A stretch of 40,392 bases of DNA from a bacterium (lineage in GTDB: Bacteria > Planctomycetota > UBA1135 > GCA-002686595), in assembly GCA_030428395.1 (NCBI GenBank), contig JAUIDW010000014.1, positions 1 to 40,392 of the forward strand, read 5' to 3'. Numbering within the stretch: position 1 is the stretch's first letter; each line of letters opens with the position of its first letter. Of the stretch, positions 3,901 through 24,323 are shown one piece after another. A program made the position numbers and the translations under genes. The notes beneath the pieces were generated by a model. That model saw only the letters and a program-made list of their open reading frames with translations, was not told where the DNA came from and searched no databases.

Positions 3901-3929
3901 AGGGTACCGCGCCCCGCCGCGGGTGCCTA
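3901..3929 (-). promoter_or_regulatory. Candidate promoter for hutI, close to the start codon
   Basis: On the minus strand TAGGCA (3929-3924), a 17-base spacer and TACCCT (3906-3901) resemble -35 and -10 boxes; only 8 bases separate the -10 box from the hutI ATG, implying a leaderless or nearly leaderless message. The match is 4/6 and 3/6, so it is tentative. Confidence 0.3.
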
Positions 3930-4694
3930 CGCGGATCGGGACGCGCGCTCGAGCCCCATCCCCAGGCGCATGCGGTGCACGATGCGCTGGCGCGAGCGGA
4001 ACATGATCATCTTCATGTTGGAGGGTCCGACGCGCAGGCGCGCGCCGGTCTCGGCGTACGAGAGCCCGCGGACCTCGACCAGCTCGAGGGCGCGGCGGTC
4101 GCGCTCGCGGAGCGCGCCGTAGGCGCGGGCGTAGTGGAGCAGGAACAGGACCCAGGCCTGCTCGAGGCGCCGGCACTCCTCGCCGTCGAGCAGCCGCCGC
4201 AGGGGCGCCGCGCCGCGGTCGGCCGGCTCCTGCAGTCCCTCGGGCAGCTCCTGGAGCGAGAAGCGGCTGCGGCGCTGCGCCGCGCGGCGCAGCACGTTGG
4301 CCGCCACGGTGCGGACCCACACCCGGAAGCTGCTCGGCTGGGAGTCGCGGAAGCTGCCGGCGTACTGGAAGACGTTGACGTAGGTGTCCTGGAGCAGCTC
4401 GTGCGGGTCGAGGGCGACCCCGTAGCGCTGGACGAGACCCCGCAGCCAGTGCAGGACCTCCAGGCGAGTCCAGCGGTAGAGCTCCTGGAACGCCCCCTCC
4501 TCGCGCCCGTCGCGGAAGAGCGCCATCAGCGCCGTCGCGACGCGCTCGCGGTGGCGCGTGGCGTCCTCGTCGGGGCCGCGCGCGACCGCCACGCCGCGGG
4601 ACACGAGCGACGCGCGCACGGCCGGGTCCAGGCCGGGCGCGGCGGGGACGGAGGCGGGCGGGGGGGCGACGTCGAGGCTGGCGGTGGCGATCAT
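3927..4694 (-). CDS. ECF-type RNA polymerase sigma factor
   Basis: A 255-residue protein with the two-domain layout of ECF sigma factors. Sigma region 2 lies at about residues 68-145 (AFQELYRWT, then LDPHELLQDTYVNVFQY and the helix FRVWVRTVAANVLRR). Region 4 lies at about 190-245: LRERDRRALELVEVRGLSYAETGARLRVGPSNMKMIMFRSRQRI, with the helix-turn-helix GLSYAETGARLRVGPSNMK. The first 50-60 residues are Ala/Pro-rich and not family-typical, so a start downstream of the ATG at 4694 is possible. No anti-sigma factor gene is adjacent, which is unusual for classical ECF groups but common in Planctomycetota. It could head the minus-strand operon continuing into hutI. Target promoters are unknown. Confidence 0.85.
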   Translation of the reverse strand: MIATASLDVAPPPASVPAAPGLDPAVRASLVSRGVAVARGPDEDATRHRERVATALMALFRDGREEGAFQELYRWTRLEVLHWLRGLVQRYGVALDPHELLQDTYVNVFQYAGSFRDSQPSSFRVWVRTVAANVLRRAAQRRSRFSLQELPEGLQEPADRGAAPLRRLLDGEECRRLEQAWVLFLLHYARAYGALRERDRRALELVEVRGLSYAETGARLRVGPSNMKMIMFRSRQRIVHRMRLGMGLERASRSA

Positions 4695-4893
4695 CGTCCG
4701 GGGCGTGGAGCACGCGCCGTGCCGGCGCGCTTCGCGGGGGCCCTCGGGACACCCAAGCCTTTTTTTCGCAGGGGCTTCGGACCAGCGGGCACCGTCCGCG
4801 GGCGCGGGCTCGGCGGCCGGCGTTGTTACGACCTCGGAACAGCCTTGGACCGGCCTGCGCCAGCCTCCGCCCGGCGCCCCGGATCACGACCGA

Positions 4894-5105
4894 ACTGACT
4901 GGGTTCCGTGTGGAAGGCAGCCCCTGTGCACGTCGGAGACCCTTCGAGGGAAGGCACTTCGGGCCGTCGGTCGCCTCCCGACCGCCCCTCGTCCCCCGCC
5001 CGGACCGGGTCGGGGCGAACGCGCCCCCAGGAGCGGCACCGCCGGGCCCGGGGAAGGGCCCCCGGCCGGCCGCTCCGGGACGGTTCCACACGGAACCCAG
5101 TCAGT
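4894..5105. repeat. Intergenic element A: 22-bp perfect inverted repeats bounding 212 bp
   Basis: Left arm 4894-4915 contains GACTGGGTTCCGTGTGG; right arm 5084-5105 is its exact reverse complement over 22 bases. The 168-bp interior is GC-rich with further hairpins, for example CGGTCG-cctcc-CGACCG near 4968. The same ends, with a different interior, recur at 23685-23895. The element fills much of the 459-bp gap between the divergent sigma-factor and CorC/HlyC-like genes. The rest of that gap (4695-4893) shows no gene; it includes a T7 run at 4760-4766 without a convincing terminator stem. No clear target-site duplication is seen. A MITE-like element, a paired regulatory site, or a structured RNA are all possible. 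Confidence 0.85.
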
Positions 5106-5153
5106 CCGGATCGGGAACGCTTCCGGGGTGCCGCGGCTGGGGCATGGCTTAGG

Positions 5154-23633: not shown

Positions 23634-23684
23634 GGGCCAGGGAACGTAGGGGGGGCCGGCCCGGCCGACAAGTCGCACCCCGAC

Positions 23685-23895
23685 CTGACTGGGTTCCGTG
23701 TGGACTCGCCGGAGCGGACCCGCCGTCGGCCCTCGCCCGGCGTCCTCGCCGGGGCCGACCGACGCGAGGCACCCGACCGGACCGGCCCCGGGCGGCGAGC
23801 GAAGGCCCTCCGCGGCGAGGGGAAGGCTCCAAGTCCCGTCGGCTGCGGGGATTCCGACGGCTGCGGGCCCCACGTTCCACACGGAACCCAGTCAG
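23685..23895. repeat. Intergenic element B: 20-bp perfect inverted repeats bounding 211 bp
   Basis: Left arm 23685-23704 contains GACTGGGTTCCGTGTGGA; right arm 23876-23895 is its exact reverse complement. The ends are the same sequence as in element A at 4894-5105, the overall length differs by one base, yet the interior is different. The interior folds well: CCCGGCG-tcct-CGCCGGG, and CCGTCGG ... CCGACGG around 23838-23860. The right arm ends 11 bases before the -35 box of the RNase P RNA promoter. No gene is seen in 23634-23941. Confidence 0.85.
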
Positions 23896-23906
23896 TCCCG
23901 GGGGGC

Positions 23907-23941: not shown

Positions 23942-24323
23942 GGCGTGAGAGGCCCGGGCGGCCGCCGCGTTCCCCCGGGAGCGCGGAGGAAAGTCCGGAC
24001 TCCGCGGGCCAGGGTGGTTGCTAACGGCAACCGGCCGCGAGGCCAGGGAAAGTGCCACAGAGAACAGACCGCCTACCCCGCCGGCTCGCCGGTGGGCGGC
24101 AAGGGTGAAACGGTGCGGTAAGAGCGCACCGCGGCTCCGGTGACGGCGCCGGCAGGGCAAACCCCACCCGGAGAAAGACCGAATAGGGAGGGCAGGCGAC
24201 GGCCCGCGCCATGGCCCTCCGGGTAGGTCGTTGGAGGCCGGGGGCGACCCCGGTCCCAGAGAAATGGCCGCCCCTCCCTCCGGGGAGGCCAGAATCCGGC
24301 TTACAGGGCCTCTCACGCCTTTT
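23942..24323 (+). ncRNA. rnpB: RNase P RNA, bacterial A-type
   Basis: Catalytic RNA that removes 5' leaders from pre-tRNAs. P1 is a perfect 14-bp pairing of GGCGTGAGAGGCCC (23942-23955) with GGGCCTCTCACGCC (24306-24319). Universally conserved parts are present in order: GAGGAAAGTCCGGACTCC near 23986, GCCACAGAGAACAGACCGCC near 24052, GGGTGAAACGGTGCGGTAAG near 24104 with its GAGCGCACCGCG, GGCAAACCCCACCCGGAG near 24157, GAATAGGGAGGGC, and the 3' CCAGAATCCGGCTTACAG. TTTT follows P1 immediately (24320-24323), so P1 may also act as the terminator stem. Neighbours: element B upstream, NUDIX gene downstream. Confidence 0.97.

Follow-up and report, generated by a model that had tools for sequence, protein, structure and literature searches.

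Short repeated elements in a planctomycete genome interpreted as MITEs of an IS1-like insertion sequence

The two short repeated elements, A and B, of a 40,392-nucleotide stretch of planctomycete DNA (contig JAUIDW010000014.1; the whole stretch is called the window) are, with near certainty as far as sequence can tell, MITEs of a 1.24-kb IS1-like insertion sequence (IS). The assignment is based on ends and a left ~95 bp common to both kinds of element, on a 9-bp duplication register that some copies show, on the scattering of copies between genes and on the presence of a matching transposase. The explanation that best accounts for the family as a whole, and that is considered likely, is a MITE population mobilised by the IS transposase, long-lived as a population and with fast turnover of its members; that mobility and turnover, and not host use, keep the ends invariant is somewhat favoured.

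Elements A and B and their family in the genome

The core GACTGGGTTCCGTGTGG is present in the window as exact matches at 4897-4913 (+), 5086-5102 (-), 23687-23703 (+) and 23877-23893 (-), and no further core is found there when as many as 3 mismatches are allowed (chance expectation 0.24; none of 100 shuffles reaches four). These inverted cores, 17 bp and perfect in both A and B, bear out the earlier note's description of a repeated intergenic element with conserved inverted ends, and the complete inverted end, [C]GA(A/C)CTGACTGGGTTCCGTGTGGA, is slightly longer than was then given. The features of the two loci are as follows.

3927-4694, - strand: sigma-70-family (ECF-like) gene, start ~196 bp from A (Pfam Sigma70_r2 and Sigma70_r4_2)
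4882-4890, + strand: presumed left target-site duplication of A, GATCACGAC, 6/9 identical to the right one
4891-5108, + strand: MITE copy A, forward orientation, with the IS-like left block on the left
4892-4914, + strand: left terminal inverted repeat of A, GAACTGACTGGGTTCCGTGTGGA
4914-4987, + strand: left subterminal block of A, common to the autonomous IS (match to model R1, E 1.3e-13)
5085-5107, - strand: right terminal inverted repeat of A
5109-5117, + strand: presumed right target-site duplication of A, GATCGGGAA
23681-23899, - strand: MITE copy B, reverse orientation
23682-23704, + strand: left terminal inverted repeat of B
23803-23875, - strand: left subterminal block of B, common to the IS (E 1.2e-10)
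23876-23898, - strand: right terminal inverted repeat of B
23946-24319, + strand: rnpB (RNase P RNA gene), 46 bp downstream of B (Rfam RF00010, 274 bits)

A and B had seemed unrelated because they lie in opposite orientations and are only 68% identical over the element. The earlier note's statement that their interiors are clearly different is correct as to strong divergence, but the identity that appears once B is flipped shows that they are not unrelated, and both share the left ~95 bp of the IS. Searched for across the genome, the locus around A was not found a second time, the only matches being other elements. Elsewhere in the window, within a - strand gene (714-2615), a 12-bp tandem repeat in ~40 copies (714-1250) encodes the C-terminal four-residue acidic repeats (DDDS, DGSN, NDCA) of a protein of unknown function.

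Across the genome (G000), whose assembly is fragmented into 554 contigs, the core has 94 matches, mostly perfect, when no more than 2 mismatches are allowed, compared with one for the reversed control. The possibility raised earlier, that A and B might be the only two copies and have no equivalents in relatives, is not borne out: 31 short elements are complete, 22 of them measuring 210-214 bp in a range from 68 to 271 bp, and related genera carry families of their own. Five complete 1.24-kb insertion sequences have the MITE ends, each with an intact open reading frame of ~350 aa, and the remaining cores are cut by contig ends, stand as single ends, or belong to one locus where three ends follow each other as tandem direct copies. 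This last arrangement lies between plsY-like and hydantoinase-like genes and is found on two contigs that are strain variants (L068:390-474 and L059:205-290; G000:C156 and C94).

When flipped to one orientation, the short elements all have a left block that is also found at the left end of the IS, CGTCGGAA..CCC...CTTGG.GC...GAGGGCCC. A model of the interior block, built without the ends, gave 40 strong genome matches (E<1e-5), all of them at terminal inverted repeats already known and with either an intact core or a near-intact IS end. Since this model recovers the same set, the conservation of the ends is not merely a product of searching by ends, and an artefact of the end-motif query was rejected on this ground. 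The elements vary in length by 1-2 bp and thus keep no reading frame. They are short and non-coding, with terminal inverted repeats and with ends common to an autonomous element of the same genome, as is characteristic of MITEs; the view that they are unlike MITEs is contradicted by the 1.24-kb partner, which has the same ends and left block.

The IS protein has an N-terminal zinc ribbon with invariant cysteines (C9, C14, C45, C48), and its fold model (pLDDT 84) shows a DDE/RNase H fold whose top PDB matches are the ISCth4 transposase and TnsB; its sole named relative comes from a Planctomycetota MAG (39%). The IS copies differ at dS 0.24-0.47 with dN/dS of 0.11-0.16 and intact reading frames, a pattern of old lineages in which selection maintains the function of the transposase. 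One further intact transposase copy (L063; G000:C99:28925-29923), 69% identical and with a single degenerate end motif beside it, is a relative that has diverged or may have been domesticated.

Insertion sites and related genera

The flanks of 35 elements show direct repeats at one register only, of 9 bp and lying 6 bp outside the core, with an identity in G000 of 0.44 compared with 0.27 (z 6.5); the same register is found in two other genomes, G083 (z 3.4) and G081 (z 3.7). In a mixture fit about one third of copies carry a duplication, at ~80% identity, and two thirds have no recognisable one, as is the case for B, whose flanks are 3/9 identical. Decay of the duplications was tried as an age clock, which at first suggested strong constraint after insertion, and was dropped: in G083 even nearly identical copies have imperfect duplications, and nearly identical related IS copies in G120 mostly lack them, and the duplications are therefore not read as a measure of age. 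In G120 there are twelve related IS copies (L295-L306), 95-98% identical and with ends GAAACTGGCACAAA, of which one has a duplication, suggesting that insertion by this transposase group often produces no duplication or is followed by rearrangement of the flanks.

Placement upstream of divergent genes does not hold as a general rule, in that 13 of 38 sites lie between divergent, 15 between tandem and 10 between convergent genes (gene calls beyond Pfam and Rfam matches come from a simple codon-usage script). Among element sides that face gene 3' ends, 14 of 34 lie no more than 10 bp from the stop codon, compared with 1 of 34 among those that face starts; copies would settle preferentially just behind stop codons, where the harm is small.

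Related families have their own fixed lengths, 157 bp in G083 and 181-189 bp in G081. These ends are carried by 10 of the 15 family genomes that have a transposase at least 50% identical, whereas the other 66 family genomes together yield one single degenerate end match, and nearly every genome with the ends also has a matching transposase. Sites common to different genera are few. In G021, which belongs to another genus, a 162-bp element (L078:1360-1521; G021:C214) lies upstream of rnpB at an offset equal to that of B, both being 99 nt from the same rnpB anchor; no such element was found in the 67 other family members checked. The G000 and G021 elements have genome-specific lengths and interiors without a match by eye, and independent insertion is possible. 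One site is common to G081 and G083, with both flanking genes orthologous, and one to G000 and G081, beside the 3' end of the same gene; a further, weaker case links G000 and G021. The 3-4 shared sites seen, set against ~0.5-1.2 expected by a rough chance estimate, are a modest excess, and nearly all remaining sites are not common between genera.

Conservation of ends and length

Interiors are much less conserved than ends, as the earlier note observed. Of the 1020 core sites in 30 elements only 4 are off consensus (0.4%), whereas 24 full-length interiors differ by 37% pairwise and by 23% from the nearest neighbour; the terminal-branch rate of the interiors predicts ~233 core differences for these 24 elements, and 2 are seen. 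No copies with decayed ends were found, the interior-only search having returned only intact or near-intact ends. In G083 all 27 measured elements are 156-158 bp long, with interiors that differ by 47% on average around short motifs (CTTG, AGGCCCT, ACTTA) at fixed places. The end positions that tolerate change vary by genome, while CTG.CTGG.TT..GTGTGG is nearly invariant. The ends of G081 are the most variable (2.3% compared with 0.5-0.9% at constrained positions), and no uninterrupted full-length transposase was found in that fragmented assembly, a combination that would fit ends kept by mobilisation.

The favoured explanation is as follows. The MITEs, which carry no gene, would be moved in trans by the transposase of the IS in the same genome, an enzyme that presumably binds the ~23-bp ends and requires a defined spacing between them. 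Selection for mobilisation would then hold ends and length while the interior drifts: only elements that the transposase can use would leave descendants, and others would be lost. Copies would be born and lost fast enough to leave no decayed copy, although the lineages themselves are old. Selection in place on several redundant transposase genes is implausible, and each IS copy is thus probably young at its present site and of an old lineage; turnover of this kind would explain the ends and length of the MITEs as well as the IS. Some observations weigh against this explanation. Loss would have to be very fast for almost no decayed copies to remain, most copies have no recognisable target duplication and the rest have imperfect ones, and one strain-variant locus together with a few shared positions hints at retention in place.

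Those last observations are the ground for an alternative, that the ends are kept in place as binding sites of a host or domesticated-transposase protein, in elements that are old, vertically inherited and exapted. At the strain-variant locus, the plsY/hydantoinase gap, 1 of 66 end sites differs between the two contigs compared with 13 of 73 sites in the nearby spacer (Fisher p 0.0013 against the spacer, 0.022 against the whole gap), and the sole differing end site is a position that is variable elsewhere. Five partnerless single ends have perfect cores, and the equal rnpB distances in G000 and G021 and the sites shared by G081 with G083 and with G000 point the same way. However, the rnpB elements may have been inserted independently, nearly all other sites are unshared, the duplications are unusable as a clock, and intact IS genes at the observed dN/dS fit mobility better than in-place use of five copies. 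Constraint in place remains a minority reading because 0.5-1.2 shared sites are expected by chance, and it is considered unlikely. A further proposal, regarded as quite unlikely, is that the IS1-like transposase or a single-copy relative doubles as a DNA-binding regulator, with MITEs, single ends and tandem arrays as its dispersed operators; if true, this would be a DDE counterpart of the regulatory role speculated for REPIN/RAYT.

That the elements are structured small RNAs or hairpin terminators is very improbable. The perfect ~23-bp terminal stems and the excess of copies just behind stop codons would suit such a function, but RNAalifold predicts no conserved pairs in the interiors of G000 or G083, the arms keep their sequence and do not covary, and single ends are unable to form a stem. 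The interiors, described earlier as hairpin-rich, have folding energies equal to those of dinucleotide shuffles (mean z 0.02). Back-to-back outward ECF sigma promoters, proposed earlier on the correct observations that GGAACC faces outward in every arm and that A neighbours a sigma-factor gene, can hardly be entertained, given that there is no conserved -10 element ~16-17 bp downstream of GGAACC (outward positions 12-18 reach at most 0.8 bit, the strongest column being one C outside the duplication), that sequence outside the ends differs from copy to copy, that the sites between convergent genes are places where outward promoters make no sense, and that the IS is flanked by the same ends, making GGAACC a part of the transposon end that needs no promoter.

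Relation to known systems

A search of one literature library found no paper describing the present MITE/IS family, and its position is best seen by comparison. The IS resembles the IS1 family in its N-terminal zinc ribbon, DDE transposase and 9-bp duplication register, and matches the NCBIfam IS1 model NF033558 weakly (25 bits), far under the cut-off of 100; it differs in having a single ~350-aa reading frame, a length of 1.24 kb and its own end, GAACTG... The Correia elements (CREE/NEMIS) of Neisseria, the first described of which is 204 bp (PMC10969869, PMC2649163), are likewise IS-derived MITEs of similar size with inverted ends, intergenic and in many copies. They have a conserved core, promoters, an IHF site and RNase III cleavage, whereas the interiors of the present family differ by 37-47% and neither promoters nor RNA structure are in evidence.

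In population behaviour the family is like the REPINs. Their ends are two invariant 16-bp motifs and length is a critical feature of the spacer (PMC3116915), and their populations persist for millions of years (PMC8049555); the present family has likewise two near-invariant inverted end motifs, a variable spacer of conserved length and a long-persisting intragenomic population. REPINs differ in being shorter, with 71 bp separating the 16-mers in the GI type, in forming hairpins whose changes are compensatory and in being moved by a single-copy RAYT (Y1/HUH); the present elements measure 157-212 bp, show no covariation and have a multi-copy DDE transposase. Membership of the REPINs is excluded by the DDE partner enzyme and the lack of hairpin covariation (0 predicted pairs), and the family, a MITE by anatomy, is close to REPINs in its dynamics and unlike them in its enzyme. 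In at least three genera it forms a DDE-transposon MITE population with ends and length nearly fixed, interiors almost free, no fossils and genome-specific lengths, and it makes the persistence of small sequence populations in bacteria testable outside REPIN/RAYT.
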